Source of the DNA: Vicia villosa
Taxonomy: Eukaryota > Streptophyta > Magnoliopsida > Fabales > Fabaceae
Assembly: GCF_029867415.1 (NCBI RefSeq)
Contig: NC_081183.1
Location: forward strand, 113,249,061 to 113,313,060
Length of the DNA stretch: 64,000 nt
Reading direction: 5' to 3'
A model generated the notes under the pieces. The model saw only the letters and a list, made by a program, of their open reading frames with translations, had not been told where the DNA came from and did not search any database. Positions 12,077 through 61,507 of the stretch are shown here, one piece after another. The position numbers were made by a program, and so were the translations under genes. The first letter of the stretch is position 1; each line of letters begins with the position of its first letter.

Positions 12077-12084
12077 TCGATTTT

Positions 12085-12516: not shown

Positions 12517-12624
12517 GGATTGATCATCATCAATAGGTTGAGAGGTTAAATGATCGGCTTAAACACTTCCTTTTATGGCTTTTTGGGCACGATATTGGAT
12601 TTCGTACTCTGATAATAACATCTT

Positions 12625-15325: not shown

Positions 15326-15331
15326 CTTTTC

Positions 15332-22724: not shown

Positions 22725-24160
22725 ATGCATATGCATCCATGGTTACCAAGACTCTTACATTCTTCCTCTCCATCAGACGAGACGATTCCTCGATGCCAAT
22801 ATCTGACAAGAGCTCACAAACGAAGAATCATGGAGAACTACGAACAAGATCAAGCTGCTATTAGAGAAGAGATGGACCAAATGAAGGGTAAGGTTGATGC
22901 AATCTTGGAAGCCCTCCAAGCCTTAAGAAATGAAAGGGTTCCTGTTGCGCAAGAGATTCATGTTGTTGCCAATCAAGCTGCTTCTAGTCAACCTACTGTG
23001 ATTCAACCTGTTGTCATTCTACCTTCTGCTAATCCTCTTGAGTTCCAACCAAGGATCAATGCTCCCTTTGGAATGCCATTTAGCTTCATGACTGCTGATA
23101 TTCCTATAACCTCAAACCAAGGAGGACCTATGCCCATAACTTCTGGAGTGCCGACAATGACAGGGCCTGTTTTCCCATTTCCTACTCCACCTCCTTTTTC
23201 AGAGATTCCTTATCCTGCTTTATGTGGTCTTTAGTCCGCCAATCCATAAATGCATCCAATACCAACTGTTGAAAGAGCTCAACCTGTTGAGAGATCTGTT
23301 GAGAAGTATGAAATTCTTGAGGAAAGAATTCGAGCTATTGAAGGTTTTAGTGCCTATGGAATGGATGTCGAAGAGATGTGCTTAGTGCCTAATTTGGTTA
23401 TCCCACCCAAATTCAAAACTCCCGACTTTCAGAAGTACAAGGGGTTGAGTTGTCCAAAGAGCCATATCATCATGTATTGTCGTAAGATGGCTTCTCACAT
23501 TCACAATGACCCATTTCTTATCCATTGCTTTCAGGATAGCTTGTCTGTGGCATCTTTGAGTTGGTATAAGAATTTGGAGCGTAGTAAGATCAGATCTTGG
23601 AAGGACTTGTCAGATGCCTTTCTCAAGCAATACCAATACAACATTGACATGGCACCGACTAGGTTGCAATTACAAAATCAGATCCAGAAGACTGATGAAA
23701 CGTTCAAAGAATATGCCCAAAGGTGGAGGGAAATGGATGCTCAAGTTCATCCACCACTTTCTGAGTCTGAGTTGGTTGACATGTTCATGAATACCCTACA
23801 GGGGAAGTATTATGAGCGAATGGTGGGTAGTGTTTCTCCTGGCTTCTTAGATATAGTCAAGATTGGTGAAAGGATTGAGAACGGTTTGAAAATTGGTAAG
23901 ATAGAGAATCCTACTACCGCTGCTGCTACTAATCATTCTGGCTACTAGAAACCTCAGGGTTAATTCTTTAAGAAGAAAGAAGGCGAGACTAGTGTTGTTT
24001 CTGCTCAGGATCAAACTCTTTATTATCAAGTGGCAGCCACTGCTCCTAATGGTTATGCTCCTCAAGCTTATGTGGCAGCAGTTGGACAACACCCTTGGGT
24101 CCCTTATCAGCAGTATGTCCAACAACAACAACAACAACAACAGCAGTTTGTTCGCCAATG
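22725..24160 (+). pseudogene. gag of the plus-strand Ogre-like element, with stops
   Basis: One frame runs through the whole segment: an N-terminal coiled-coil-like part (EEMDQMKGKVDAILEALQAL), a Pro-rich linker, and the gag domain from about 23330 (YKGLSCPKSHIIMYCRKM, FQDSLSVASLSWYKNL, SDAFLKQYQYNIDMAP, FKEYAQRWREMDAQV), ending in a poly-Gln tract coded by (CAA)n at 24118-24143. It is interrupted by TAG at 23233, TAA near 23248, TAG near 23947 and TAA near 23962. Other Ogre gags appear to have Gln at these places. It is about 45% similar by eye to the minus-strand gag and is cut by copia sequence at its C-terminus. Confidence 0.85.
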
Positions 24161-37938: not shown

Positions 37939-40900
37939 TTATGTTCTTTTCACCAAAGAAATTCCTGTAGGGTCACCACCCATTTCTTCCAACACAACCA
38001 AGAAGTTCCCGCCTGAGTTCAGCCACGAGCGAGGAATATGATACCTGACGAAATACAAAAATAGGATGTTATGATCTTGAAATACTAACATTGTTGTAGT
38101 AAAGTAAATTGAATGGATTCTTACCATTTTTGGGTTGGTTGTCCACAATTTGTTCGGCATTTTTTATCGGTAAATGTTCCGGCATAACTACAACCGCCAC
38201 AATTACCACGTGCTATGTATCCCGGCCAATGGCGACCAATGCTCTTACCGTTTACCCATATTTCACCCTTTCCCATGCTACTCATATCTAGAGCCAATGG
38301 ATCGTTTCCAGCAGGCGCGCTGAAAGTTGTCTGGCAGCATTGAAGCATAAAATGAATCAGAATTCATGAAGATACAGATAAAAACTTGAACTACACTAAC
38401 AAAATTGCGACATTTGTAGAGAACTCATTCTTACCTTGTACCATGTGAGAGGTTGCTTCTTAGACAAAAAGGATCCTTGTGTCCATTTAACTGAGGAACT
38501 TCCAGTTGTGGTATGAAGGTTCAAGGATTCACCTTTCAGTCCAGTCTGTTCAATATCAAAAAATGTTCTCATTTTTCAGTCATGATCTCCGTAGAAAAAA
38601 GTTTCTAGAATGCAATGAATATATAAGATAACAAACCTTGTAAGACCATTTTTGTTTAGACAAGTCTCTTGTCCCCTCATTTAGACCCTTCAATGTTACC
38701 GGGCCTAAGACTCCGACGTTCCATGTTTCGTAATGCAAGCCAACATTCTGGTATTAATTTGAATAAAAAAATGGGTTCAAACATATTTTTATCAGCAAAT
38801 CGAAAATGTCACATATAACATAGACATAAGACAATAGACAACTAACCGAGAGACCGACTGCAACACTGAGTAGAGAAATCTTGTTATTGCCAGCCCATAG
38901 CTTCACACTACTACTTAATGTTAATTTAGGATTATCAATTCCTCCATACGCAGTTCCTACATTGATGCAAGAGATGAATATGTAAAGAGAGTTTCTATTT
39001 AGTATGGTAACTATTTCATCGAAACACGCAAATACTGACGTGATGCATTTTAAAACGTATTATCTCGGTATTTTACAGAACATAGGAGGAACGCTCACCT
39101 GAAAGTTGACCGTTAACAAAAACATGCAGAACATGGCCGGCCGACATTGCAGTAAGAACAGGATATTGGCCATTCTTTAAGAAAGCTTCATTAGGACTAA
39201 TGTTGACACTAAACAAGAACAAAAAATTGAAGTATCCGTAAATATTTAAGAGATTTAACATTCGAATTACTTATAATCTTTAAGAAAGTTTGAGAAATTG
39301 AAAGATTCTTACTCTGTCATGTACCACAAATAATCTGACGAGTCACGAGTCACTTTGACCTGCTCCAAAAGTGCATTTATTGTGATTGAACTTTCTCCAC
39401 CGGTGGCGGCAGGTTGTTCATTGTATGACTGCCAATTAAACCCGCTGTTTACAGGAGTCATCTTTCTATGGAACCTCGGAGCATTAACCTGAACAAAATT
39501 GATAAATATTTGTAAATGTTCACACTTCGAAAAGCCTTGACATAGTAAATCCAAAACTTATGTAACATATTCAGCAATCTTATGCTACCTTTGCAGTGTT
39601 GAAAACCTCAGTTTTACAGTCAGGAAGGATACTGATAGACCACGGTGGTAAGTCGTAATGGCCATTTCCGAACGGAACTTTTGCCCACGATGAGGTGTCG
39701 TAATTTGCAAGGAAGGCAGCACAGGCACCAAAGCTTGTCTTGTAAAGGTGCACCTACGATTACATTAACAAACAAAATCAAATGAATGTTCAACGCAGTA
39801 GTAATTCTGCGCATTTTATAAGAACCACCTCGGTATTGTCTTTACCTCTAGGTTTTTTCCAGGCCATGACACTGTCGGATCCACGGACACTAAAGCTGAT
39901 TCGCATTGCTTTATCGCTTTATGTAAATTTTTTAGATGCCCCCATTTTGGTTCATTTGTAAGTCCTGATATAATGGTAGAGTTGAACAAACAAACATCAA
40001 TATATTTAACTATCGCCATTCAAAGCATGTAAACGATTTAAACCTTAATACTGCATACCGTATTCATCGATAGGAGCATCGTAGTCGTAGCTTGTGGCTA
40101 TGAAAAGGCCACTAGTTGTTCTTCCAAAGTTAGTTCCTCCATGATACTAGACTCGAATATAAGACATTATTAGACTCAAATCGAAATTTCTAGAACTTGA
40201 ACTTTTAGCTAAGAAATCAAATATGCCAAGTCTGTACGAATAAAAATACCATATAGTAGTTAACATAAGATCCGCGATTCTGTACGAATCTGGCGACTGA
40301 GAATGCCAAGTCTTCTGCTGGTCGATAAGGGACAGCACTACCAAAATCAGTGTACCTAAAAAATAAGAAGCACAAAAGTAAGATAAGACCCGAAATGCAA
40401 CTTTTTTCTAACTTCAAGTGGCATTTGTATGACCGAACCCTAACATACCAGCCAGTCCAATTTTCAGTCCACATTTTGGGTTTGTAGTTCTTGTTGGGAG
40501 AGAAGTTTTCGCAGTAATATCCATTGCAGGTATCAATCTACAAAAACAAAGCCAGTAAATACAGATCAGATAGTGCTAGAACAGAAATCCTAATCCTAAA
40601 GAGTAAAGATACCAAAAAAAAACGCAAGCAATGATTGCACAATGTTTGCAAAAAGTAGCTCTATCAATAACTATATGCCATAACCAACATACAGAAAAAG
40701 ATGCAAAAGACAAAAGAATCAGCACAAGTTTCCTTTCATCAAAAGTTGAATTGAAATTCAATCTTAGCAGGTGGAAAAGAAAAACGTAGAAGATAATAGA
40801 AGTATTGAAGCAAGCCAAAAAGCATCTTCCTTCAAATAAAGGAAAAACAACAAAAGGGAAAAAAGGTGAAATGGACTTATGGAAAGAACATCATGACATA

Positions 40901-42640
40901 GTAAAAGCAATAACCTTAGTCTAAACAAAATAAGCATGAAACTGTTATAAACCCCACCAATAAACAGGTCATACAAATTTTAACGGTCAGGATAAGAATT
41001 TCGTAACAAACAAAAAAGCTTCAAAGTCACACACCACACGAATACGTTTATAAAATTCGTAAAAAGAAAAGATTGCTTACAATAGGATCTGGAGCATCTT
41101 CTTGCTTGCACATAATCCACGGTACACCCGTGTTTAGACCCACAGCCATTTGAGCTGCCCATTTCGTATAAGCTTTTCCCGGAGCACCAATCTCCCATTC
41201 CACTGGTCCATACTCATTCTCAATCTGTAACAATTCAAATTGAATTTCAATCTTCCTTTTTCTCCAAGTAGTTCGTTCACGTAGTTAAAGACAAATAGTT
41301 TAACAGAACCCGGGTTTAAATCTTACCTAAAACAATCATCGGTCAGATTTTACTTATTTATCAGTTAAACTCAGAATTACAGATTACATAAACTTTATAG
41401 TAAAAAATTTAAGAAACTCTATAGTTAAAAGAAAACGTTACTAAAAATAACACATATAAAATAACATATTAAAATACCATTTTTTCTTTATTTACCTGAG
41501 ACAAAATGATTGGACCACCTTGGCTTTGAAACAATCTTTCACCTTTCATAATACTGACAATCTTAGCAGTGAATTTTTGCATTGCAGCCTAAACATCATT
41601 ACAAAATTCGGACGGTTAATTAAAAAATTAATTAAACAAAAACTAATTAAATATCCATAATCAACCAAACAAATCATTAGAATTTAAACTAATGAAACTC
41701 CAAAATAGAAAAAGTTCCAACCTTGAACGGCTCGTTGTCTGTTCTGAAAGCAACACCTGGTACATACTTTAGCCAAACAGGAAATCCCCTGCATACAAAA
41801 ACAGAACGTTGTTACTACTTTTGAGTAATTGCTAAGAATTTACCTAAGAATTGTTCTTTTCTCACCAAAATGATTAAAATCATTACCCGAAATTCCATTC
41901 CGCGCAAACATAGGGACCGATACGCAAGTGAACATATAGTCCAGCTTGTTGTACCACTTTCACAAACTTAACCAAATCAAACCTATCTTCAAAGTAATAC
42001 TGAAAACAAAATCATCATTTAATAAAACTCGAATTATCGAAAATCTATACACAAAAGATATTGAATTGAAATTAGTTTATTACATTTCCTTGAGAAGGTT
42101 CATGCCCATTCCAAAATACATATGTTTCAATCACATCAACACCTCCATCTTTGGCCTTTTGAATTAAATCTGGCCACATCTGCATTAAGAAACACTTTCT
42201 ATGAGTCTTATAACTTTTACCAACAAACTTTTTTTTCTTTCCGAAAATATGGCAGAGACATGACACCTCAACACCAGTAATAATTTAAAAAAATAAATAA
42301 ATTAAACATAATTACATGTCTGACACAGACACACCTATTTTCAAATTAAACGTAATCACATGTCTGACACAGACATATCTATTTTCAGAAGTGTCAATGC
42401 TCCAGACTGCATAAGTCCATAGCATGAATGATGAATTGAAAAAACAAAATTTGATGCAGATAGAGTTTGTACCTGAGGAGTGCTTCTTGGATAATGAATT
42501 GAACCAGAGATCAAAATTCTTCTCTGACCATTAATTACAATAGCTTTGTGATCATAAGTCACTGAGGCTGTGACAGAACAAACGCAAAAACACAAAAACA
42601 ACAAAACCAAAACCATGTCAAACTTTCTCTCCATTGTCAT
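37939..42640 (-). CDS. Beta-galactosidase, GH35, secreted, 18 exons, 725 aa
   Basis: Hydrolyses terminal beta-galactosyl residues of cell-wall polysaccharides in the apoplast. Exons (minus strand): 42640-42473, 42179-42084, 41999-41887, 41788-41722, 41588-41496, 41224-41081, 40537-40449, 40355-40250, 40146-40059, 39964-39846, 39753-39589, 39488-39313, 39208-39099, 38956-38847, 38747-38637, 38545-38435, 38330-38125, 38044-37939. All introns are GT-AG and the sum is 2178 bp, an exact frame. Residues 1-26 form a signal peptide. The GH35 signature [13 protein letters not shown] spans exons 5-6 (likely acid/base Glu183), and WTENW in exon 7 holds the likely nucleophile Glu252. The protein ends ...SLVKRT without the C-terminal lectin domain, like the ~725-residue plant BGAL subgroup. 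An alternative ATG lies at 42634. The only intact host gene in the window. Confidence 0.95.
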
Positions 42641-42813
42641 ATGTTTCTTCACTTTTGTTCTAGTTATTGAAACACATTAAAAAGGGAATGGAAAACAAAG
42701 AGAAAAGAGCTTCTAGTTTTTATTTGAGGACAGTTAATCCAACCACTTTGTTATAGGGTGAGGTGTAATAGTTTGATGGGTGAGTTGAAGTGAATGGAAT
42801 AAAAATGCAACTG

Positions 42814-45131: not shown

Positions 45132-45135
<4 letters not shown>

Positions 45136-45690
45136 CGTACCTGATCAGAAGAATCGTCGTAGGCTGCTCGGACTGGATCTTCTAGGAAGGAGGAGGGGGG
45201 TGTACCTGCAAGGTACTCCAATGCCAAAGTAAGTTGACGAGCAAAGGAGCGCAAGTACTAGCTAAGAGTGAGTAAGAATTGAATACCTGACCCTCTAGTT
45301 AAAGAGGGTATATATAGCCCCCAGCGCTGGGCCATGATCTCGCTATTGGGTTGGATTCCCAAGCCCAACTAGGAGACTGCCAGGTTTCCTGAGCGGAAAT
45401 ATCGGAGGTGCGTGTACGCCCTCTGTCCTGGTTAACCGCTCCGAAGTCCAAGGGAAGACGCGGTCTTTTAGGAGCCACGTGGGATCCGAGTTATTCGGAG
45501 GATTGGATATGAAGGACCCCTGCGCGGAGCAGGGTCCTCGGCAAGGATGACGCCGAGCGAGGTCGTTTGTTCCGGGTAGGGTGTTAGTGCCGAGCAAGGC
45601 GTGTCGGGAAGGCCACGAACTATTCATGGGCCTCTGAGGCTTATTGGGCCGAAAGCGGTGTTGGGCCTAGCCTTGGCCCAGTCCAGAACA
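45132..45690 (-). mobile_element. 3' LTR of the Tat-type element
   Basis: On the minus strand it begins TGTTCTGGACTGGGCC and ends GGTACGATCA. A minus-strand TATA box CTATATATACCC lies at 45308-45319, about 370 nt into the LTR. The chance minus-strand frame 45627-45343 is not a gene; an identical copy of it lies in the other LTR. Confidence 0.9.
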
Positions 45691-45703
45691 GGAGCCCCCC
45701 AAG
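45691..45703 (-). other. Polypurine tract of the Tat-type element
   Basis: On the minus strand ACTTGGGGGGCTCC directly precedes the 3' LTR. It primes plus-strand DNA synthesis during reverse transcription. Confidence 0.75.
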
Positions 45704-45938
45704 TCGGAGTTTTCTGGTTAAGAAGCTGTGACTTTGCTTCTACGCTCGGACCCCAATTCTCGTGGTTGCTCGGTGGATCGGTCCTCGTTACATGTATGCG
45801 CTCGGAGGAAAATCCAGTGGTGGGCGAAACGTCGCGCGTGGGAACCACGCGCTGACGTGGCATAGGCAATGATGGCCTAGGGTATAGGAGGCGGCGCCTG
45901 TCAGGAGAGGTGACGCTTCGCCTTCCGAGCCATTTTCC

Positions 45939-45945
45939 TATAAAA
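45939..45945 (+). promoter_or_regulatory. TATA box of the antisense gene
   Basis: TTTCCTATAAAAGGGGGCAA is a strong plant TATA context in the plus orientation, about 150 bp upstream of the ATG at 46092. It lies inside the gypsy element but points opposite to the element's own transcription. Confidence 0.65.
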
Positions 45946-46091
45946 GGGGGCAAATTCTCTCATAAGGAAGTTTTCCTTTCCCTGTTTATCTGCTCGGCTT
46001 CGATCAAGGGTTCCTCGGAGAATAATTTCCCAGCTCGTTCATCATATCAAGATCGTTGCTTAGCGAAGGATTCTCCCCGGCCATCCACATC

Positions 46092-48244
46092 ATGTCTGCA
46101 AGTAAGTTTGTTTAGCCTGTCGTCGCTTTAATATTTTGCATAGGATTTGTGTTTCGCTTTCGAGGTCTTCGCCATCATCATCCTCCCCGGGTTATCTAAG
46201 CGATGCCCGGGGGTCAGCGTGGGTTGGCGGGCCGGAGTATGTTGGCGTTAAGCTGCTTAAGATAAGCTTTCCCGTTGTCGTGTCATCTGTGAGTCCTCGG
46301 CTGACGAGTGTTGTTCCTCGATGGGGGTTTGGTCGGGGGCTCTGCTGCTCCTGCTCTACCCTTTCGCTTGCCTTGCGGTGGAAGGGTGGATTTGATAGAC
46401 TATCGAATTCACTTCTCCCTTCTGCGTGCAGGTGAATCAGATTCGAGCGCTACCTCAAGAACCGGCTCGGACACCGACTCGGCGACCAGTGATTCCGACA
46501 GCTCGACGGCAACTAGTTCCGACGTCGAAATTATTGATGAAGATGGCACTCCCTCGGCCGAAGGCGCTCACACGGGATCCCCTGGTTCGAATGCCGAGGG
46601 AGGGGTTTCCCCTATGCCGTTATTCAGTTATGAACATACCGTTGCGCCCGATTGGATAGCCGAGGAGGCTCTGTCCGTTGTTTCTCGGTACACCGCGTCT
46701 CTGGATGGGGCGTTTACAGAAATTGAGGTCCTGGGGGAAGGAGATCCGCCCAATTATCAAATAGGTTGCCCGTCTCCGGACGAACGCATATGCTCTCGGT
46801 TTGCCGGGGACGGATTTGCGATGTACGATTACGTGTTTAGGGAGCTCGGCTTCCGGTTACCTTTCTCTGATTTTCAGGTTTCAGTTATGGCGTTTCTATC
46901 TCTGGCGCCGTCCCAAATTCATCCGAATGCCTTTGCTTTTATGCGGGCATTCGAGATTGTTTGTGATTATTTGGGTATAGGTGCAACGTCTGCGTTGTTC
47001 GGAAGATGTTTTCGTGTTCAACGGCAGGCGTCAAACGGGCGGTACAGCTGGGTTTCGTTCAGGAACGCCGAGCGTAAACTCTTCGGAATGTATACTGATT
47101 CCGTGAAGGGTTTTAAGGATCGATACTTCGTTGTCCGCCCCCTAAGTCCAACGGCCTACTCTTCGGTGTCGGATATGGTGGCCGAGCGGGATGCCGAGGG
47201 GGAGATAGTGAGGGATGAACATGGGCAGGAAGTAAAGGAGTTCTGCACGACGTTTCCGTTTTTCTGGTGGAAGGGTCATTTTGCGTCTCCTCCGAAATAC
47301 TACGCTTGGGAGGACGATGATCTGGATGATCAAGACCGGGAGTCATACTCGGTCCTCTGCAAATACGTAGATAGCTTTACCCTGTCTCGTTGGGTGACGA
47401 GGAATGGAGATCCCATACTGAACGAGGACGGGGTGCCGATCACGGAGCAGCGGCCTATTAATACCAAGGCTTTGCTAGCCTGTCGGACTCCGGAGGAGAT
47501 CCGGACGTTGTTAGGTTGTGTCCATTCACCTTGCTTTGTGATCTCCGCCCGGTATTTTGCTAACTTGTTTTTCTTTTCTTTGCAGATGCTATGCCGGAGA
47601 AGGAGGATACTATCCTGAAACAGGCTTTGGATGCGAGGAAGAATCAGAAGAAGAAGAACCAGGGAACCGGAGCTGGAGAGAACTCAGGCTCGGCAGGCTC
47701 TCCTCACAAGATTCATGTCGACGAGAGGTTACCCAAGAGACCTCGTTCTTTCGAGGGGGGACGTCCAGATCAGTCGAACCTAGGTCCCGGGCGCGCCTTC
47801 GTGTTGCCTTCTTGCTACAAGGATGGAGACTATTTCGAGAAGTTCCCCTTGGCTACCTCACCGGATGAAGCTCGTCGGATCAGTGATATGGACCCCCCGT
47901 CCCTTCAGAAACAGTTGGCGTGCGACAGTGCCGCCGTGGTGAGGGTCTTGGAGATGGCCCAAGTGTTGGCCAGTGGAGGTTCGGGCTCGACCGAGGCCCT
48001 GAAGGAGGCCGAGGCGGCTAAGAAGGTGGCCGAGGACAAGGTGAAGGCCATGGAGGTCGAACGCAAGGAGTTGAGGAAGAAGGTCGACGCGGCCCTGAAG
48101 CAGAAAGACGCGGAGGTTGCGGCCGAGAAGAAGAAGCTGGCTGACCTTCGACTTAAATGGGCTCCCTCGGCCGACGAGTCGCCGGATGTGGCAGCTCTGA
48201 AGTCTAGGGCTGAGTTTGCGGAGAAGATAGAAAGCCGTTATTAG
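46092..48244 (+). CDS. Antisense three-exon gene captured in the gypsy element (583 aa)
   Basis: Exons 46092-46101, 46432-47514 and 47586-48244 join to 1752 bp, an exact frame. The introns (330 and 71 bp) are GT-AG; the second has a gctaac branch-like site and a pyrimidine-rich acceptor. Exon 1 codes only MSA plus one base. The N-terminus (residues 4-45) is Ser/Asp/Thr-rich. Residues about 125-245 (SRFAGDGFAMYDYVFRELGF ... MRAFEIVCDYLGI ... FRVQRQ) resemble the plant domain called 'putative gypsy type transposon' (Pfam PF04195 from memory). Residues about 500-556 form an Ala/Glu/Lys coiled coil. The stop overlaps that of the truncated RT frame tail to tail, so the C-terminus is probably cut. 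Function unknown. Introns survive because the element transcript reads this strand as antisense. Confidence 0.75.
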
Positions 48245-49741
48245 GGTTGGTCTGTCCGGACGATGATAGTGTGGGCGAGGAAGTAGTACCTCAGTCTTCT
48301 GGCGGCCGTTATTAGGGCCAGTGCGATTTTTTCTATCTGTTGATAGCGGACCTCGGGTCCTTGTAGGGCTTTGCTAGTGAAGTACACTGGCTTCTGCCCG
48401 TCTTCCGTTTCTCGGATCAGGGCCGCGCTGGCCGCCTCGCCAGAAACGGCCAAGTAGAGATAGAGAACCTCGTTGCTGTCTGGTCGGGATAGCACCGGGG
48501 GTTTGGAGAGCACTTGTTTGAGGTGGGATAATGCTTGTTCGCATTCCTCGGACCATTCGAAAGCTGCTTCCTTCCGAAGAAGCTTAAAGAATGGAAGTGC
48601 ATGCTGGGCGGATTTCGCGACGAAGCGGGATAATGCCGTGAGCATTCCGTTTAGTACCTGGATGGATTTTTTGTTGGTGGGAGTAGGGAGGTCTGAGAAT
48701 GCCCGGCATTTATCAGGGTTGGCTTCTATTCCTCGTTCTGTTAAGTAGAAGCCGAGGAATTTGCCAGCCCGCACTCCGAAGGTGCACTTCTCTGGATTGA
48801 AGCGCATCCTGCAGGACCTGGCCTGCTCGAAGACCCGCTCGAGATGTAGCGTGTGGTCGGAGTCTTCTCGAGATTTGACGATCATGTCGTCCATATACAC
48901 CTCGAGCGTGTCGCCGATTTCTCCTCGGAAGACCTTGTTCATCATCCGCTGGTAAGTGGCTCCGGCGTTTTTGAGTCCGAAGGGCATTACGTTGTAGTAA
49001 TAATTGCCCGATTCGGTCATGAAAGCCGTGCATTGCTTGTCGCATTTCGCCATGGGAATCTGGTTGTAACCAGAATAAGCGTCCATGAAGGACAACAGTT
49101 TATAGCCGGCCGAGTTGTCGACCAGTCTATCAATATTAGGTAAAGGGTAGGCGTCCTTTGGACATGCCCGGTTAACATCAGTATAATCAACGCACATTCT
49201 CCATTTTCCATTAGATTTTTTAACAAGTACAACATTTGAGAGCCAAGTTGAATACTTGGCCTCGGAAATAAAATTTGCCTCTAGGAGGTCTTTTACAGCT
49301 TTCTCGGCAGCCTCCGCTTTCTCGGGAGACTGCCGACGCCTACGTTGTACTACGGCCTTGGCGGTTGGATTGATGGAGAGGTGGTGACAGGCGACCTCAG
49401 GGTCGAGTCCGGGCATCTCTGCGGCGCTCCAGGCGAACAGGTCGGCATTGGCTCGAAGGCAGGCTACGAGTTGCTTCTTCGGTAGGTCAGGGATGCCTTT
49501 GCCGATCTTCACTGCTCTGTCGAGGTTGTCTCCCAGGGGGATCAGCTCGAAGTCTCCGTCGGGGACAGGCCGGACGGGATGAGGGGCCTTTGAGTGTGTC
49601 TCTTCCCCGGTCTTCAGTTCTTCCTGTGTAAACCTCGCGTCGAGGTCGACTGAGCTGACGTTGGCCGTTGGATCCTGATCTTCCCGAGGATGCTTGTCTT
49701 CGGCTCTTGGTTTTTTGTTTGAGCTGGTCGGAGGAGCGATC
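48241..49741 (-). CDS. RT and RT-linked RNase H of the Tat-type element, 3'-truncated
   Basis: Coding sequence continues in frame from the protease part beyond the copia insertion and ends at TAA 48243-48241. Motifs in order: LPKKQLVACLRANADLFAWS, CVDYTDVNRACPKDAYPLPN, LLSFMDAYSGYNQIPM, MPFGLKNAGATYQRMM, the catalytic box YMDD, FGVRAGKFLGFYLTERGIEA, LLRKEAAFEWSEECEQAL and a degenerate RNase H (LYLAVSGEAASAALIRE) to HTIIVRTDQP. Relatives continue for several hundred residues into a second RNase H and integrase; here everything after TDQP is lost and the opposite-strand gene abuts. There is no internal stop, so the RT looks intact. A GTG-coded Val at 49512 is internal, not the start. Confidence 0.9.
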
Positions 49742-51171
49742 TGTTAGACGCTGGCCTATAGATCTAGAGGGGGGGTGAATAGATCTCACTAAGTTTTTAC
49801 AGATTTTTCTACAGACTCGAGCGAAAGCGGTTCTGAATCGACTTGCGTCTATTCTGGACCGCTATTGCAAAGGTCGTATGTGTTTCAAAACCAAAACGTA
49901 AGTGGAATTTGATGGTGAAGTAATATGATAGCTAACCAATACGTTTAACAACTGAAATCCAATTAACTTCTAGATTGACAACTTTGATTTGCAATGCAGT
50001 AAGATTGGATCAAGCAAAAACACAAACACTTGGTGCTTATAACCAATTATGAACAGAAAGTAAAAGAGAAAGTAAAAGCGACAAGAACACGATATTTGTT
50101 TAGGCAGTTCGTCGATCGTCCTCGCTACGACTACGTCTGCCCCCAATTCCAAATTGAAATTGGGTAATCTTTCATTAATGTTGAAAGTAGTATATACAAA
50201 GAAGATAACAAAGCGATAAACGATAAACCAATTATGTCGATCCTTTGAATCTTCTTCCCCCTTAATCTTGAGCAAGATCAAGGTTATCCAAGAGCTTCAC
50301 TTCGATTCCCTTCTGCAGTGTCTTGATTCCTTGAACTCCCCGTTCCTCAATCGTTACACTCAGCCGAATCCTCAATGAACGCCTCTTGATAAAAACCCCC
50401 AAGAACCACCCGTCGTGGAGGACAAAACCCGCAGATTTTATTCACCAACAAACCCCACGAACCTTCACCCACTAGGAATCTTCAATTCCGTTCCATGGAC
50501 GTTATCGAACTCATCACTAACCCGCAACGCAAGAATGATTATGTGTAATTGTGTTGGAGATGATGAAGAACGAAGATGAGAAGCGTTTGTGTATCTTTCA
50601 GTCGTTGGTGTTAATTGAATAATTACCCTTGCACAATATATATGATTGCATAACAGTTAGAACCAAGAAAAACTGATTTTTGAACTTTCTTGATCAGTTA
50701 GGTCGACCACTTGTAGTGCTTAGGTCGACCTAACAGAGCTTGCAGAATTTTTCTCCCAGTTAGGTCGACCTGTTGAAGGAGTAGGTCGACCAGAATCCTT
50801 TTCTGATGCATTCTGGAGGCTTTTTCACAGATCAGGTCGACCTAGTTGCCATGTAGGTCGACCTAACAGACTGATGTGAAGATTTCTTCATTTTGAGTCG
50901 ACCTAAATGGTCTGTGAGTCGACCTAGCAGAGGTATATGGATTTTCCTTCATTTTAGGTCGACCTAGGTTGACAGTAGGTCGACCTAACTGCTGATTTTC
51001 TGCATTTTCCATGTTCAGCTTGTGTTGAGTTGACTTGTATGCATAGTAGATCATCTTGTGCTTTCATGAGTGATCAAATGCTTTACTTTTCTGATTCCTC
51101 CTTGTTGTTTGGATGCTCATTTGAGTTTGCCATAAATCAAAAACATCTTTGAGTGTAATCTTGTATTCACA
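49742..51171 (-). mobile_element. 3' LTR of the SIRE-type element
   Basis: In plus view it runs from TGTTAGACGCTGGCC to TTGTATTCACA. It contains ten AGGTCGACCT-type palindromes at 50700-50995 and a minus-strand TATA-like CATATATATTG at about 50635-50645 just downstream of them in sense. No gene; the frames at 50281-49970 and 51054-50863 are duplicated in the other LTR. Confidence 0.9.
50700..50995 (-). repeat. Ten AGGTCGACCT-type palindromes in U3 (left LTR)
   Basis: Ten copies of aGGTCGACCt (two reading gaGTCGACCTa) come in five pairs, about 20-30 bp apart within a pair and about 60 bp between pairs. They occupy U3 immediately upstream of the TATA-like box in sense orientation. Confidence 0.85.
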
Positions 51172-51185
51172 TACTCCCCCTTTTT
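51172..51185 (-). other. Polypurine tract of the SIRE-type element
   Basis: On the minus strand TCAAAAAGGGGGAGTA directly precedes the 3' LTR (boundary at 51171). Confidence 0.85.
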
Positions 51186-51681
51186 GATGATGGCAAACCA
51201 ATAGTCAAAAGCTTTGGTAGTAAGTGATGAAGACTCAACAAGGCTCCCCCGTACATCCAGCATCTATCTCTCAACCAAGAAGTCTCTTCACAAAGCTCCC
51301 CCGTACACTCAGCATCTATTGTATTTATCTCCCCCTTTGACAACATCAAAAAAAGAAACAGGAGAATAGAAGAATAACAAGAGCACCATAGATAATAATG
51401 CTAGCATGTATAGTGTAGTAGGTAAAAGGTAGTTAATGGTAGAATGAGACACATATGTGAGCAGGAGCAGTTTTTATGCATGAGGTCACTATAAGCATGT
51501 TAATTGATAGCATATTATAGTATCAATAATATTTTTGGAAGTGAACAACAATTACGTTACCGCTTTTTCAATATGACGCCTGGCTTGATGATGAACCACC
51601 TTTATGCTAAAAAGGATGTTAGCAAGACAAATAGATATATACATAAGGTAAAGAAATAATATTAAGAGAAAACAAACGTAA
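51186..51681 (-). other. 3' untranslated part of the SIRE-type element
   Basis: About 500 bp between the pol stop and the polypurine tract. SIRE elements often carry an env-like frame here; none is present. Confidence 0.7.
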
Positions 51682-54600
51682 TTAACCCAAATTAGAGATA
51701 TCGAGTATCCCTAATTCCCTACGAATGTTGAAATATTGCTCCGTTGCTAGCGGTTTGGTGAAGATGTCAGCTAGTTGCTTCTTGCTTTCTACATGTTCAA
51801 AAGTAACATCTCCTTTCTCTACATGATCTCGTAGAAAGTGATGCCTTATTTCAATGTGTTTGGTACGTGAGTGTAAGACAGGATTTTTACTCAAGTTTAT
51901 GGCGCTTGTGTTGTCGCACATGATAGGTATGTGATCAAGCTTAATACCAAAGTCAAGAAGTTGTTGCTTGAGCCATAATATTTGTGCACAGCAGCTTCCA
52001 GCAGCTACATATTCTGCCTCAGCAGTGGATAATGCAACCGATACTTGTTTCTTACTATGCCAACTTATTAATGAGTTTGAGAATAGATGACACGTTCCAC
52101 TAGTGCTTTTTCTATCGGATTTGCAGCCAGCAAAATCTGAATCGGAGAATCCTACCAAATGACACTCATTTCCTTTTGGATACCATAGGCCATATGTAGT
52201 AGTTCCACGTAAGTATCGCAGAATTCTTTTGACAGCTTTCAAGTGAGATTCTTTTGGACAAGATTGATATCTTGCACACATACACACACTAAACATGATG
52301 TCTGGTCTTGAGGCAGTAAGATACAATAGTGAACCTATCATACCTCGGTATAATTTCACGTCAACCTCTTTACCTTTCTCATCTTTGTCTAGATTTGTAT
52401 TTGTTGCCATAGGTGTGTCAATTTCCTTTGCTTCACTCATTCCAAATCTTTTGAGCAGCTCCGTACAATATTTAGTTTGATTCACAAACGTTCCATGATT
52501 GAGTTGCTTGATTTGTAGGCCAAGGAAGAAATTTAGCTCACCCATGAGACTCATCTCAAATTCACTCTGCATAAGCTTAGAAAAGTCTTTGACAAGTTTT
52601 GCATTAGTGGATCCAAATATAATATCATCTACATAAATTTGGACTAAGAGAATATCCTTATCTTTTCTTTTAATAAAGAGAGTAGTATCAACTTTACCTC
52701 TAGAGTACCCTTGACTAAGGAGAAATTTGCTCAAACGTTCGTACCAAGCCCGAGGGGCTTGTTTAAGACCGTATAGAGCACGTTTCAGCTTATAAACATG
52801 AGTCGGATACATGTAATTCTCAAAGCCGGGTGGCTGAGCAACATAGACTTCTTCATTTATATAGCCATTTAGAAAGGCACTCTTAACATCCATTTGGAAT
52901 AGTTTGAAGTCTTTAGAACAAGCATAAGCAAGTAAGAGGCGAATAGCTTCGAGACGTGCTACAGGAGCATATGTCTCTTCATAATCAATACCTTCCTCTT
53001 GATTGTAACCTTGGGCAACTAATCTAGCTTTGTTTCTAGTAATAACACCGTTTTCATCAAGTTTGTTACGAAAAACCCATCTAGTGCCTATTACTTGATG
53101 ATCTCCCGGATGAGGGACTAAGTCACAAACATCATTCCGTTTAAATTGGTTTAATTCTTCTTGCATGGCCATTAGCCAATGCTCATCAAGTAATGCATCC
53201 TTAGCGTTTTTCGGCTCAACTTGTGAAACAAAAGCAAAATGATGGCAGAAGTTACTTATCTTTGAGCGTGTTGTAACGCCCCTTGAGATGTCTCCTATTA
53301 TATTATCAATTGGATGGTCTTTCACGTTTGTCCAGGCCTTTGGAAGCTCTTCATTGTTTGAGATGCTTTCTTTTTCATTTTCATTGTGAGACTCATCTTT
53401 CTCTCTCTCAGCATCTTTCTTTACAACACTTTCATCTTCATCTTCCTTATCCTTGACAATGTCTTCAGTGGATGGACCTGCATCATTAAATGAAAGACCT
53501 TTCTCGACATATTTTGCATAAGATTCATCAAAAGAAACGTGTACTGACTCTTCTACTATAAGTAATCTCTTATTATATATTCGATATGCTTTGCTAGATT
53601 GTGAGTAACCAAGGAATATGCCCTCATCAGCCTTAGCGTCGAATTTGCCAAGATTATCCTTACCATTGTTCAAAATAAAACACTTGCAACCGAATACATG
53701 GAGATGAGATACATTTGGTTTTCTACCCTTTAGTAATTCATAGGGAGTTTTGTTCAGTATAGGACGTATTGTTATCCTATTCAAAACATAACATGCTGTA
53801 CTAATCGCGTCAGCCCAGAAATACTTTGGTAGATTACCCTCATTCAGCATTGTTCTTGCCAGCTCCTCTAGAACACGATTTTTACGTTCAACTACTCCGT
53901 TTTGTTGAGGTGTTCTAGGAGCTGAAAAGTTATGCTCAATTCCATGTTTATCACAGTATTTTTCAAAAGAAATGTTTTCAAATTCTCCACCGTGATCACT
54001 TCGAATTGCAACTATTTTGTTGTTCATTTTGTTTTGACATAATCTAGCAAATTGAGTAAAGGCTGAAAAAGTTTGATCCTTACTAGGTAAAAAGATTGTC
54101 CAACAAAATCTCGAGTAATCATCGACAATGACAAAACCATAGGTGTTTCCACCTATGCTTTTAGTCCTTGAAGGGCCAAAGAGATCCATGTGAAGTAGTT
54201 CAAGAGGGCGTGATGTTGAAACCACGTTCTTTGATTTAAAAGAGGTTTTTGTTTGCTTTCCCTTTTGACAAGCATCACATAGATGATCTTTTGAAAACTT
54301 CATTTTGGGTAAGCCGATTACTAAATCTTTTGAGACAACTTTATTTAGTAAGTCAAAATTTATGTGGGCGAGACGTCTATGCCAAAGCCATGAGTCATCG
54401 CCTAGAGCAACTAGACATTTGGTACTAGACTTAGATACCTCATCCAAGTTTAGCATGTAGATGTTGTTTACTCTTAAGCCCTTAAACATAATGTCTCTTT
54501 TCTTAGTATGTTCTATTGTGCATCCAGAATTTGTAAACATTACTTTAAAATCTTTGTCGCACAATTGACTTATACTTAAAAGATTATGTTTAAGACCTTC

Positions 54601-54840
54601 TACTAGCAGCACATCAGTTATAGTAGTGGTAGAAGGGTTACCTACACTTCCTTTACCAAGTATGGCTCCCCGATTGTTATCTCCATAGGTGACATACCCC
54701 TTTTTCTTTGCTTGAAACTCAACGAAAAGAGATAGGTCTCCAGTCATGTGTCTTGAACATCCGCTATCAAGGAACCACAACCTTTCGGCAATGTCAAGAC
54801 ACTTTTCCTGCAAGATTAATTTAAAGAGGGAGGTCCCCAA
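51682..54840 (-). CDS. pol of the SIRE-type copia element (PR-INT-RT-RNase H)
   Basis: An uninterrupted frame of about 1052 codons. Protease: [14 protein letters not shown] with the catalytic Asp at 25. Integrase: zinc-binding H154, H159, C188, C191, then D219 (LLHMDLFGP), D282 (SDHGGEF) and E318 ([10 protein letters not shown]) in the expected D-D-35-E spacing. [22 protein letters not shown] at 651-670, catalytic YVDD at 736-739. RNase [20 protein letters not shown], then FTKPLA near the end. All catalytic residues are present. It has no ATG of its own; it overlaps the gag frame by 25 bp in a different frame, so it needs a frameshift or this copy carries a 1-base indel near the GGGG at about 54836. 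Confidence 0.95.
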
Positions 54841-56555
54841 TTTTCATTGGGTCCTTGGTAGTGAGTACACAATTTGTTGCACTTAGGCAACCATTGAAAT
54901 ACTCCTTTAGGAACTAAAATTCTCCTAAATTTGCATTTTTCAATAGTATGTCCCTTTTTGCAACAATAATGACAGGTAATATGATGAGAATATGGAGTTT
55001 TGCTAGTTGATACTTTTGGTACAAAAGTGTATTTACTATATAAAGGAGTATACGATCTTTTGAACTTGTTTGGATCAACTGCAAAAGTCACTTTTGGTTG
55101 TAGAGCCTTGTCTAACTTGGCTTTTAGATCTCTCACTTCTTTTTGCCAAATGTGACATGTCTCACAACCAAACCATGATGTAGGATCTGATTCAACTTTG
55201 TCCTTTTGAATGTCTAGCATAGATTGTTTTAAAGCTTCCATATCCCTTTCGGTTTTCTCAACTTTTGATTCAAGATATGAAAATATTTTCTTATTTGAGG
55301 CCAAAAGTTTGAAAGCTTTAATTGCATCTCTATGTAATTCTTCAAAAGCAAGTTTTAGTTGAGAATGAGATACCTTATCTACGAGTTCAGGTTTAAGATG
55401 ACTTACAGCTTTCTTTTTCTTGTTTTGATGAGCCATGAAACATAGGTTTGCTGATTCTTCTTCATCGCTTGACGAGTTTTCACTAGATGAATCACTTTCC
55501 CATGCTATGTAAGCTCTTTTAGATTTGTTATGACCTTTGCTTTGGTTCTTCTCCCTTTCTTTCTTAAGGTATGGACAATCCGGTTTGTAGTGACCGGCTT
55601 TCCCACAATTGAAGCAAAGACCTTTGATCTTTCCTTTGTTGTCGTCATCTTGTTTGAACATGTTTGATTGCTTTCTATAGTTGATCAATCCTTTGTCGGA
55701 ATGTTTTGCTCCATTTTTCTTTAGATATTTGTTGTATCTTCGCACAAACAGTCCCATTTCCTCATCATCGGAGTCTTCGTCATCACTTGTGTCACTATCC
55801 TTTGGCTCTCGTTTTGAGGTCTTGGAGCTCGAAGCTTTTAGAGCTATTGACTTCTTCTCTACCTCTTTCTCCATGTTCTTTTCTTTCTTTGTCCTCTTCT
55901 CATGCATGTCAAGGCATTTAAGATGCTGTTCATGTTCCTCTAGTTTACCAAAAAGAGTGGTAATGTCTAAAGTGTTTAGATCATTTGCTTCCTTAATTGC
56001 TGTAACTTTGGGCTGCCATTCCCTGTTCAAACACCTTAAGATTTTGTTAGTAGCAACTGCATTGGAAACAGGTCTATCAAGAGAATTTAATCGATTTTTC
56101 AGGTGAACGAATCTTTTCTGCATGCTTTCGATGGTTTCACCATCTTCCATGTGGAAAAGTTCGAACTCTTGAGTTAACGTATTGATCCTAGCTAGTTTGA
56201 CATCATCCGTTCCCTCGTGGGCAACTTGCAATGTGTCCCACATAGCTTTAGCTGATCTACAATGGGAAACGCGATAGTATTCATCAACTCCTAGAGCTGA
56301 GATTAGAATGTTTCTCGCTTTCCAATCGTATGCATATTTCTTTTCATCTTCAGCATTCCAAGTATCTTCTGGTTTTGGAACAACTGCACCAGCTGCATTT
56401 GTCATAGTGATCTGAAATGGACCATTGACAATAGCTGTCCAGATGTTCCTATCAATTGCATTGATATGGACACACATACAATCCTTCCAATAGCCGTAGT
56501 TTTCTCCGTTGAAAACTGGAGCTCTATTATGAGCCCCTTTAGGTCCAGAAGCCAT
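54816..56555 (-). CDS. gag of the SIRE-type copia element, 579 aa
   Basis: I start at ATG 56555 ([20 protein letters not shown]); the frame is open further upstream to the PBS but without ATG. The N-terminal half is a copia gag domain ([66 protein letters not shown]). A Ser/Asp-rich stretch lies at about 240-265. Two CX2CX4HX4C zinc knuckles are at residues 314-327 ([14 protein letters not shown]) and 528-541 ([14 protein letters not shown]). Gag forms the cytoplasmic particle. It ends TAA at 54816, with the pol frame beginning within its last codons. Confidence 0.95.
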
Positions 56556-56589
56556 CTTTCCAATAAGTGTTTCACGTAGCACGGAATAA

Positions 56590-56610
56590 ACCAGAGCTCT
56601 TGATGCCACT
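56590..56610 (-). other. Primer binding site of the SIRE-type element
   Basis: On the minus strand AGTGGCATCAAGAGCTCTGG follows the 5' LTR immediately. It resembles the initiator-tRNA-Met primer site TGGTATCAGAGC used by copia elements, with two changes and an extra base. Confidence 0.65.
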
Positions 56611-58040
56611 TGTTAGACGCTGGCCTATAGATCTAGAGGGGGGGTGAATAGATCTCACTAAGTTTTTACAGATTTTTCTACAGACTCGAGCGAAAGCGGT
56701 TCTGAATCGACTTGCGTCTATTCTGGACCGCTATTGCAAAGGTCGTATGTGTTTCAAAACCAAAACGTAAGTGGAATTTGATGGTGAAGTAATATGATAG
56801 CTAACCAATACGTTTAACAACTGAAATCCAATTAACTTCTAGATTGACAACTTTGATTTGCAATGCAGTAAGATTGGATCAAGCAAAAACACAAACACTT
56901 GGTGCTTATAACCTATTATGAACAGAAAGTAAAAGAGAAAGTAAAAGCGACAAGAACACGATATTTGTTTAGGCAGTTCGTCGATCGTCCTCGCTACGAC
57001 TACGTCTGCCCCCAATTCCAAATTGAAATTGGGTAATCTTTCATTAATGTTGAAAGTAGTATATACAAAGAAGATAACAAAGCGATAAACGATAAACCAA
57101 TTATGTCGATCCTTTGAATCTTCTTCCCCCTTAATCTTGAGCAAGATCAAGGTTATCCAAGAGCTTCACTTCGATTCCCTTCTGCAGTGTCTTGATTCCT
57201 TGAACTCCCCGTTCCTCAATCGTTACACTCAGCCGAATCCTCAATGAACGCCTCTTGATAAAAACCCCCAAGAACCACCCGTCGTGGAGGACAAAACCCG
57301 CAGATTTTATTCACCAACAAACCCCACGAACCTTCACCCACTAGGAATCTTCAATTCCGTTCCATGGACGTTATCGAACTCATCACTAACCCGCAACGCA
57401 AGAATGATTATGTGTAATTGTGTTGGAGATGATGAAGAACGAAGATGAGAAGCGTTTGTGTATCTTTCAGTCGTTGGTGTTAATTGAATAATTACCCTTG
57501 CACAATATATATGATTGCATAACAGTTAGAACCAAGAAAAACTGATTTTTGAACTTTCTTGATCAGTTAGGTCGACCACTTGTAGTGCTTAGGTCGACCT
57601 AACAGAGCTTGCAGAATTTTTCTCCCAGTTAGGTCGACCTGTTGAAGGAGTAGGTCGACCAGAATCCTTTTCTGATGCATTCTGGAGGCTTTTTCACAGA
57701 TCAGGTCGACCTAGTTGCCATGTAGGTCGACCTAACAGACTGATGTGAAGATTTCTTCATTTTGAGTCGACCTAAATGGTCTGTGAGTCGACCTAGCAGA
57801 GGTATATGGATTTTCCTTCATTTTAGGTCGACCTAGGTTGACAGTAGGTCGACCTAACTGCTGATTTTCTGCATTTTCCATGTTCAGCTTGTGTTGAGTT
57901 GACTTGTATGCATAGTAGATCATCTTGTGCTTTCATGAGTGATCAAATGCTTTACTTTTCTGATTCCTCCTTGTTGTTTGGATGCTCATTTGAGTTTGCC
58001 ATAAATCAAAAACATCTTTGAGTGTAATCTTGTATTCACA
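56611..58040 (-). mobile_element. 5' LTR of the SIRE-type element
   Basis: Same length and, apart from one visible base (56914), same sequence as 49742-51171. It carries the same palindrome array (57569-57864) and TATA-like box (about 57504-57514), and drives transcription of gag-pol toward lower coordinates. Confidence 0.9.
57569..57864 (-). repeat. Ten AGGTCGACCT-type palindromes in U3 (right LTR)
   Basis: The second copy of the array, in the promoter-active 5' LTR. Positions equal those in the left LTR plus 6869, and all ten copies are conserved. Confidence 0.85.
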
Positions 58041-58825
58041 CGATCAGCTCTAGTCCTTTGACGGACGCATCGAAGATCCTTCTCGCAGCTTCGATGTCGG
58101 CGTTGATGGTGGCCACTTTCCCTGTCCTCGTGTAAAACTTCATCTTCAGATGGACCGTGGAGGGTACGGCGGTTAGCTCGGCCAGTGTGGGGCGCTCGAT
58201 GATGCAGTTGTACAATGTCTTGCAGTCGATTACCAAAAACCTGGTTTTGACTTGCCTGGACGCTTCCCCTTCCCCGAAGGTGACAATCAGCTCGACGTAG
58301 CCCCATGGTTTGGTGGTGGCTCCGTTAAAACCTTGGAGGTCGGAACCCACATAGGGAGTGAGGTGCGAGTCGTCCAGCTGAAGTGTTTGGAAGAGGTGGG
58401 AGTACATAATGTCGACTGAACTGCCTTCATCTACCAGGACCCGTCGCACATCGAAGTTTGCCATTCTGGCTCGGACGAGAAGGGGAATGGTGGCGTTTGG
58501 AGCTCCGCCGGGCAGTTCTTCGAGGTAGAAAGTGATTGGCTCTGACTTTCCTCGGAATTTCCGAAGAGTAGGGCCGAGATCGGCATTGGCGCTGAGTAGC
58601 TCGTCGAACTTTCTCTTGACTGAACTGACAGTGAGGGAGCCGGGGTCCCCGCCGTTGGAGATGACCATAGCGGTGGGGAAATGTTCCCAGGTGCTGAGGG
58701 CGGTCGTCACGCCGAGCGAAGGGATGAAGTCTTCCGGTCGGGTTACGGACAGTGCGACTTGAAGTGGTCTGCTGTCTGGTGAGTTCCCCTCGTCCGAGTT
58801 TCGAGGGATGCCTCTTCTGGGGGGG
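58041..58825 (-). CDS. Protease part of the Tat-type element, frame joined to RT
   Basis: The frame runs from the homopolymer at 58819-58825 through VALSVTRPEDFIPSLG, the active-site motif VLVDEGSSVDIMY (D-E-G-S in place of the usual D-S/T-G) and FLVIDCKTLYNCII (related elements have LGRP after YN.I; here ERP) to KGLELI at 58041, where the copia element interrupts it. Position 58046 continues in the correct codon phase at 49741, so the protease-RT polyprotein was open before the insertion. The enzyme cleaves the gag-pol precursor. The frame differs by one base from gag, with the change at a run of seven C (sense). Confidence 0.8.
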
Positions 58826-60535
58826 TTCTCCCTTCTTGGTGTATCTTGCCAGGTGGCCCTCTTTGATCAAGGTCTCTATGGCATCTTTGAGATTTATGCA
58901 TTCGTCAGTCATATGTCCGTGGCTTTTGTGGTACTTGCAGTACTTGGACTTTTCTGTCCCCGGTCTCGTAGGATTTGACTTTGGGGGCCTGATGTTGGAT
59001 TTCTTGAACTCGGCGTTCTGGCAGTCGGCCAGGATTTTCTCCCGGGAGGTGTTCAAAGGAGTGTAGTCGTTGAAACGCCCTGCTGGTCCTCGCCGTTCTT
59101 TGACATCTCGGGATCGGTCGTCCCTTCTTTTGTCTTGTCCTCGGCGCGACCCCGGGTCATCGAGGTTTGAGTTGCGAGAGGCACCACTGCCCCTCGGGCC
59201 TCTGATTGCGGCTGCCTCGCCTTCCTCAAAATCGATGAATACCTTTGCTTTGTTGAGGAGGTCATTCATCGAGTGCACCTTCTCAATCTTAATAGCTTTT
59301 TTGAAGTCACTGCCGGGGAGAAGTCCTCGCTCCAAGATGTACCTCTTCATGTAGTCTTCTGTCTGTACTTGGACGGCCTCCTTGTTGAATCTTTCAAGGT
59401 AATCTCGAAGAGGTTCGTTGGGTCCTTGTACTACGGCCTCGAGATTGGCTTCCGATTTCGGTTGCCGTCGGGAGGCTGTGAAGTGGCTCAAGAAGAGTTC
59501 TTTGAGCTCGGTCCAAGAATGGATGGAGTTCGAAGGGAGGTTCCTGTACCAATTCATCGCTCCCTTCCTGAGGGTGGTCGGGAAAATGCGGCACTTGATC
59601 GAGCCTCTGACGACGTGATAGTCCATGACCGCTTCGATGCTCCGGATATGGTCGTCGGGGTCAGTGGTTCCGTCGTATTGGTCCAACACTGGCGGTTTTT
59701 CCATCCCCCGAGGGAGGCGGGCTCTCCGGATACTGGCGGACAAGGGGCTGCGGAAGTCCTCCTCGTCGCTCGGTCCTGGTGAATTGTAGTGCCTGTTTCG
59801 TCGGGGATCCTCTTGGTTGTTACCCGTCGCAGCTTTGGAGGGGCCCCGACGGCCCTGTTCGGGGGAGGGGCTTCTTTGTTCAGCGGTCTCAGGTTTCTGG
59901 TTCTTCCTGTTCTTTCTGTGTGGAGAACGGGAACGAGTCCTCCGGCGGCGATGTCTTCTCGGGGGAGACCTTGAAGAGGACGGGGAACGCCGACGGTATC
60001 TTCTCGGCGGTGAGCGTGAGGAGGAATAGGAGCGTGACCTGTAGCGCCTCCGTGGAGAAGGGCGACGTCGCCGCTGTCTTTCCAGTTCGTGAATTCGGTC
60101 ATCCTGAATTCTGAGGAGGCTGTTCGTCAATTGTATTTCTTTGAGTAAGCGGACGGTGATGGGGTCAGCATCCTCGGGAATGTTGAGCGGTTCCTCTTCT
60201 TCCCCATGACGGGCTCTCCGCCTCTCGGAGGTGTGGGTGAATGAGGAAGCATGTTGCCCGTCTCGGGGGTCGGTCTCATTCACATTCTGGGCATGTTCCG
60301 GCGCGTTGGTCGTTCTGATCTGCTCGCCGTTCTGAACGTGCCCTTCTGGAGGAACATGGTCGACATTCTGGACTTGTTGTAGGACCTGCAACAGCTGGGT
60401 GTCCTGGGTTTCATGCCCGGACCTTTGTCGCCGACGATCCCCCCGACGATGATTAGCTAGCTCGCGGGAGGATTCCTCGATCAGCTCGTGGAGGAGGAAA
60501 GGGTCAGCGCTTGGGATGTTGTTGTTGTCAGCCAT
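58770..60535 (-). CDS. gag of the Tat-type element
   Basis: Starts ATG 60535 (MADNNNIPSADPFLLHELIE). An Arg/Ser-rich stretch at about residues 155-215 (SPRRRYRSRSYSSSRSPPRR) is followed by the gag domain (PPVLDQYDGTTDPDDHIRSI, GAMNWYRNLPSNSIHSW, LKELFLSHFTASRR, LRDYLERFNKEAVQV) and a C-terminal zinc-finger-like CKYHKSHGHMTDEC. The frame stays open to 58427, but below about 58815 the conserved protein is in the neighbouring protease frame, so I end the meaningful gag near 58770. The SR-like stretch is unusual and may bind RNA. Confidence 0.85.
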
Positions 60536-60592
60536 GACGATTGGAGATGATTAGCTTTGATCTTTGTTCTTTAAAGATGGGGAAGCAAGATT

Positions 60593-60609
60593 CCCACAGA
60601 CGGCGCCAC
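60593..60609 (-). other. Primer binding site of the Tat-type element
   Basis: On the minus strand TGGCGCCGTCTGTGGGAA begins one base after the LTR end ...GATCA. It is a standard plant gypsy primer site. Confidence 0.85.

Positions 60610-61507
<898 letters not shown>

Follow-up and report, generated by a model that had tools for sequence, protein, structure and literature searches.

Antisense open reading frames (ORFs) of plant Ty3/gypsy retrotransposons have been described without a known function. The closest described systems are the Retand elements, which carry an antisense PF04195 (TRP28) ORF between pol and the 3′ LTR (PMC11963269; PMC6317226) and whose pol has an additional RNase H located after the first and before integrase. 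The TRP28 domain was reported in 23% of Retand elements (Neumann 2019, PMC6317226), whereas among recent Retand clusters 97% were found to have antisense TRP28 ORFs (Vicient 2025, PMC11963269); the latter work also reports a prediction that TRP28 binds DNA. Its table also contains two RH/INT-less Retand clusters, Alopecurus myosuroides 2 and 3b, of which the text counts one; these comprise 55 and 43 copies and have kept gag, RT and TRP28. Maize Grande likewise bears an antisense accessory gene, gene23, which is reported to be transcribed from its own promoter and to encode a nuclear protein (Gomez-Orte 2013, via PMC7264820). The same 2020 review describes Retand expression as weak and asks for the study of spliced antisense transcripts (PMC7264820). 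HTLV-1 HBZ (cited in PMC11963269) is similarly an antisense regulatory gene of a retroelement, a likeness of function only, for which no homology is claimed.

The window, a stretch of 64,000 nucleotides from Vicia villosa (contig NC_081183.1, positions 113,249,061 to 113,313,060), contains a gypsy element which is an ordinary deletion derivative and whose antisense gene is of this known kind. Taken together, the locus is very probably a private deletion derivative of a high-copy Retand-type family that bears a conserved spliced antisense TRP28 gene. As in Retand, the antisense PF04195 ORF lies between pol and the 3′ LTR in the window, and the same gene is present in all 39 other copies scored. 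The second RNase H that precedes integrase, a trait of the Tat group, is found in both relatives scanned and is deleted in the window, so that the assignment to the Tat group made in a preliminary description of this DNA holds. The LTR of 559 bp falls inside the range of 315-1,194 bp given for Retand, and the pol-3′LTR region of 2,550 bp (45691-48240), measured in a deletion derivative, is below the Retand range of 2,933-6,566 bp (PMC11963269). Unlike in the published Retand descriptions, two introns and a TATA box belong to the antisense gene here, and these are common to diverged families. Another Tat-group retrotransposon has an intron on the sense strand that is spliced from part of the transcripts, whereas the introns here are antisense. 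Neither PMC11963269 nor PMC7264820 uses the word “intron” in its main text, and among the paper titles listed none concerns introns in antisense TRP28 genes. Within the literature covered, the conserved, predicted spliced structure of this gene was thus not found described before.

The host element and its antisense gene

The gypsy element is delimited by a 3′ LTR at 45132-45690 and a 5′ LTR at 60610-61168 (minus strand), which in a self-comparison differ at one of 559 positions (99.8% identity). The polypurine tract ACTTGGGGGGCTCC (45691-45704, minus strand) directly adjoins the 3′ LTR, the primer binding site TGGCGCCGTCTGTGGGAA (60591-60608, minus strand) is assigned by its position beside the 5′ LTR, and the flanks, where a target-site duplication was sought, consist of (TA)n. 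On the minus strand follow the gag frame (58430-60550; PF03732, 2.2e-15) and an upstream part of pol (58042-58866), which is the protease region by position and is without a Pfam match. These two frames are offset near 58,820, close to a run of seven G; the offset (about 58,800-58,870) may be a natural frameshift site or a mutation, so that the window copy may have been defective regardless of its deletion. Gag is not adjacent to RT in this copy because a copia element (49742-58040, minus strand) has inserted between them, with LTRs at 49742-51171 and 56611-58040 that show one difference in 1,430 and with the target-site duplication CGATC on both sides. Judging from the frames on each side, pol would be continuous across this insertion. 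Both insertions are dated by LTR differences only (1/559 and 1/1,430). The copia element, nested in the gypsy pol, is very young, has long, open gag and pol frames, and contains clustered palindromic repeats of the AGGTCGACCT type in its LTRs (50762-50989 and 57631-57858).

The remaining pol part (48241-49740, minus strand) encodes RVT_1 and a truncated RNase H that matches profile positions 3-79 of 105, and it ends TDQP-stop with the stop codon at 48241-48243. As its RNase H breaks off at profile position 79 and integrase is deleted, the window copy is non-autonomous; of the 16 minus-strand open pieces, the 7 that were scanned gave no integrase match, the three weak hits all being below their cut-offs. 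Elsewhere in the window there are a tandem array at the left edge (7-538) with inner units around AGTCGACACCTTTGACGGTTCCTTA, fragments of another gypsy element (gag, RT-RNase H and integrase; 11048-17217, minus strand), a tandem repeat of 4.6 copies of a 68-bp unit (22317-22631) upstream of a gag frame at 23250-23948, and a multi-exon host gene that is beta-galactosidase-like by eye (38000-42650, minus strand).

The antisense gene is placed on the plus strand, opposite to pol, between the truncated RNase H and the polypurine tract, as the preliminary description had it. The TATA box it named at 45939 is present (TATAAAA, 45939-45945), and the first ATG downstream is at 46092. The three exons it proposed are recovered exactly: the 10-nt coding part of exon 1 (46092-46101), exon 2 (46432-47514) and exon 3 (47586-48244) join at GT-AG borders to give 583 codons and a TAG, that is, 584 codons including the stop. 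The encoded protein matches PF04195 (Transposase_28/TRP28) at amino acids 139-200 (46836-47021, within exon 2) with an E-value of 7.2e-10 and 39.4 bits, above the profile cut-off of 26.2 bits, so that the domain, earlier called PF04195-like, is also upheld. The long open runs are not due to chance, since no first-order simulation of the region, out of 2,000, attained the 437 codons of the middle exon; runs of at least 225 codons (the exon-3 frame has 226) occurred in 11 of 2,000. By a simple consensus score, donor 1 and acceptor 1 of intron 1 (46102-46431) reach 8/9 and 11/13, respectively, and in intron 2 (47515-47585), which contains a CTAAC at 47560, donor 2 is weak (4/9) and acceptor 2 is full (13/13). 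The exon-2 and exon-3 frames are both open over 47564-47615. A sequence search of the PDB returned no matches, the searches of prokaryote and viral contig collections yielded no confirmed relatives, and a single-sequence structure model of exon 2 (mean pLDDT 35.7) was set aside.

Conservation and selection within the family

The query 46000-48300 was compared with the window’s own genome (2.03 Gb, 1,888 contigs), and the best 40 of 1,818 candidates, the window itself included, were scored. All 39 scored relatives were aligned and their coding sequence compared up to position 48236. Being the best matches of a large family, the scored copies are biased towards intact ones, but the comparisons of exon with intron and of frame with frame are internal ones. 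The structure of the gene is the same in every one of the 39 copies: the ATG, both GT-AG pairs and the CTAAC are kept throughout, no coding length change occurs, intron 2 is always 71 nt, and a premature stop is found in a single relative (L030). The length of intron 1 has changed in 23 of the 39. A full TATA box is present in 22 of 24 relatives, the alignments of the remaining two starting one base later. The preliminary description had taken the retention of the introns to fit transport as antisense cargo, and with the splice sites kept in all other copies scored this view is supported; the introns, being antisense in the genomic RNA, cannot be removed there, which would account for their survival through retrotransposition.

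The total share of variable sites is similar along the gene (0.203 in intron 1, 0.171 in exon 2, 0.197 in intron 2 and 0.195 in exon 3), and the conservation signal lies in codon positions and indels rather than in total variability. For the spliced frame of the 39 relatives pN/pS is 0.203 (133 N, 197 S; bootstrap 0.156-0.254), as compared with 1.03-1.91 in shifted frames, and the variable sites fall on codon positions 1, 2 and 3 in the numbers 66, 53 and 193, respectively, of 581. The TRP28 domain has a pN/pS of 0.113 (8 N, 22 S). In an alignment of the first 24 relatives, the whole antisense gene gave 0.179 and TRP28 0.049. In the same eight copies the antisense gene gives 0.227 and RT-RNase H 0.122. 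Codon comparisons thus show purifying selection on the predicted spliced protein, somewhat weaker than that on pol. Three further copies chosen for their unusual frames (L081, L082 and L083; G000:C3:3339184, C1421:98666 and C17:2711302) have an intron 2 of 81, 81 and 72 nt, and their unspliced frame is open for 762-765 amino acids; with an intron length that is a multiple of three and an open frame, an ORF finder would report a different protein from these copies than elsewhere.

In the layout proposed for the relatives, read from pol to the antisense gene, pol encodes RT, RNase H, another RNase H and integrase and is followed by a spacer of ~690 bp and a convergent antisense gene of ~633 codons, which is divided into three exons and has a TATA box of its own. 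Transcription of this gene by RNA polymerase II from the TATA promoter is probable, and the mRNA would be spliced and translated into a TRP28-domain protein that selection maintains in the active lineage, its conservation being observed directly. Alternatively, the conserved unit could act mainly as an antisense RNA, through dsRNA or trans-silencing, with the protein being secondary. Such a role is kept open by a review (PMC7264820) and has a precedent in the antisense RNA described for Ty1 (PMC12786077); the convergence of pol and the antisense gene in the relatives and the near-invariant DNA blocks in intron 1 (see below) are also compatible with it. However, the excess of variable third codon positions together with the low pN/pS of TRP28 indicates that selection sees the protein, and a mainly RNA-based function is therefore unlikely. 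For the TRP28 protein itself, a nuclear, nucleic-acid-binding regulator of the element appears the most likely role, a suggestion that is favoured modestly and that draws on the literature and on inference.

The deletion at 48236

The preliminary description held that the antisense gene replaces integrase in the element. When other copies are compared, this does not stand as a feature of the element’s design. All 39 other copies scored with the query 46000-48300 end their match at 48236. In the seven of these that were read on the far side, homology resumes at 48245 after 2,739 bp (2,737 in one), so that the stretch absent from the window is present in every relative read. The two relatives scanned against Pfam (L009 and L010) contain RVT_1, RT_RNaseH, RVT_3, H2C2 (Integrase_H2C2) and rve in this order, the missing ~2.7 kb spanning the end of RNase H, the second RNase H and integrase. 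On the other strand, the antisense frame of all seven relatives continues for 155 nt to its own stop (52 codons in L002), and exon 3 of the window is correspondingly shortened. With a junction-centred query (48170-48304), the window alone crosses 48236 among the best 40 of 977 candidates scored. A second copy with the same junction near 48241, which had been looked for following the preliminary description, was found neither there nor among the best 40 of 1,818; the rarity of the junction is thus defined by two similarity searches with the best 40 matches each. A replacement of integrase by design is rejected, as the junction is absent from every other scored copy.

In place of the ~2,739 bp the window has an 8-nt filler, GTTATTAG (48237-48244). 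Together with the flanking GCC and GG it forms a 13-mer (48234-48246) that recurs unchanged within the RNase H region at 48305-48317, 71 bp away, and this is the sole pair of 13-mers less than 300 bp apart among 4,597 positions (45132-49741). The match likely reflects a templated filler at the deletion junction, for which 48305-48317 would be the template. The overlap of the two stop codons noted earlier is indeed present, but both the antisense TAG and the TAA of pol lie within the filler and their overlap is a by-product; as an evolved feature it is rejected.

According to the proposed course of events, the ~2,739 bp would have been lost via template switching during reverse transcription, or by end joining, with addition of the 8-nt filler. 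This would have removed the second RNase H and integrase, trimmed 52 codons from the antisense gene and created both overlapping stops, leaving the window copy as a young, non-autonomous remnant in a Retand-type Ty3/gypsy family of high copy number. Another copy would have supplied integrase if the insertion came after the deletion. As the last 52 residues are missing, the product of the window copy may not work.

A different reading is that the window copy belongs to a non-autonomous subfamily that has been amplified and is mobilised in trans, with the antisense gene standing in for integrase. The near-identical LTRs and the primer binding site and polypurine tract in place would suit such a subfamily, and RH/INT-less Retand clusters with TRP28 have been amplified in Alopecurus myosuroides (PMC11963269, table). 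Against this, no second copy of the junction was met in either search, in contrast to the copy numbers of those clusters, and the junction is of the filler type, so that an amplified subfamily is highly improbable and a deletion private to this copy is preferred. Where a single retrotransposon copy shows an apparent “replacement”, it should first be compared with other copies.

Diverged TRP28 loci in the same genome

A PF04195 search of the window’s genome, in which 150 of 2,532 candidates were scored and the best 20 fetched, reveals loci with ~32-45% identity to the window protein in the exon-2 part. In all 16 loci whose alignment reaches amino acids 358-368, counting backwards from the alignment end locates a GT at the same codon and in the same phase as donor 2; these 16 loci form five clusters at 80% DNA identity (10, 3, 1, 1 and 1 loci). 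Their unspliced frame stops after 5-28 amino acids in every case. At 13 of the 16 loci a ESMDRARHDRMLRQASK-like (ESMDR-like) exon-3 start, which resembles DAMPEKEDTILKQAL of the window, comes directly after either of the best two candidate acceptors, which lie 81-128 nt further on; the exceptions are L062, L074 (loose similarity only) and L079. Candidate introns of the diverged loci measure 70-128 nt, and the joined frame is unbroken up to the exon-3 match in three of ten testable loci and broken in seven.

These loci also bear on the possibility that a frameshift, and not an intron, connects exons 2 and 3. The weak donor 2 and the overlap of the two open frames over 47564-47615 would permit this, but the constant 71 nt of intron 2 in the 39 relatives, its 72, 81 and 81 nt in L081-L083, the candidate introns of varying length in the diverged loci, and the invariance of GT, CTAAC and AG in 39/39 speak for splicing and leave a frameshift a very slim chance. 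Less probable still is an origin of the antisense frame as a piece of a captured host gene, or as a passenger, whose splice-like sites arose by chance. Its anatomy is gene-like (TATA box, introns), but the structure is the same in 39/39 scored copies with a pN/pS of 0.20, PF04195 is typical of Retand antisense ORFs (PMC11963269), and the GT of donor 2 is retained in 16/16 diverged loci; a passenger host gene is rejected on the evidence for selection, and for the family the passenger DNA considered in the preliminary description is contradicted by the same purifying selection.

Upstream, TATAAA is located at the corresponding distance in 18 of the 20 diverged loci. The acceptor of intron 1 has its AG in 18 of 19 (AA in L067, with L061 outside the set), and in 17 of 19 an ATG is seen by eye within about 10 nt past this acceptor; intron 1 of those loci would consequently be a candidate 5′ UTR intron. 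When the diverged loci were screened automatically for an ATG and donor pair that would mark a coding exon 1, a candidate emerged in only 2 of 16, so that a coding exon 1 is proposed for the window’s family. Close to the acceptor, intron 1 contains two conserved blocks (within 46377-46413), GGTGGAAGGGTGGATTTGAT and TCGAATTCACT (46377-46396 and 46403-46413), in which all but one column are invariant between the window and six diverged loci; in L062-L080 they lie at about 1,110-1,270 in the oriented sequence, and several of the 13 other loci have single changes in them. In the six diverged loci, identity to the window is 0.68-0.76 over 46391-46431, as compared with 0.39-0.51 over the exon stretch 46432-46480. 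Possible identities of the blocks are branch-site signals, splicing signals and a cis element of the sense genomic RNA.

The families have in common where donor 2 falls, with its phase, as well as the intron-1 acceptor and a near-invariant intronic block, and their proteins are only about 35-45% identical in the TRP28 exon. The antisense TRP28 genes of Retand elements are thus probably, as a rule, accessory genes that contain introns and are driven by promoters of their own; this generalisation is tempered by the origin of all diverged loci from one genome and by two of the five clusters lacking a confirmed pol neighbour. If it is true, surveys that seek unbroken ORFs would catch mainly the middle exon of the TRP28 gene, and the element would have kept a spliceosome-dependent gene through retrotransposition by antisense placement. 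A gene model is now provided for these ORFs, and the selection on it, together with an intron common to diverged families of one genome, points to the full-length TRP28 protein, not an exon fragment, for function tests.

The neighbourhood was read over 3 kb on the exon-3 side in one locus from each of the five clusters. No pol match was found within this distance for the clusters of L072 and L074. For the three other clusters (L084-L086), a related pol with 68-81% identity to that of L009 faces the TRP28 gene from the opposite strand; L084 and L085 show the part from the second RNase H through integrase, and L086 part of integrase. An opposite-strand integrase part with 82% identity is likewise found at L079. 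Between families, the integrase part is 68-82% identical, as against ~35-45% for the antisense protein; pol is thus much better conserved than the antisense protein, which diverges faster.
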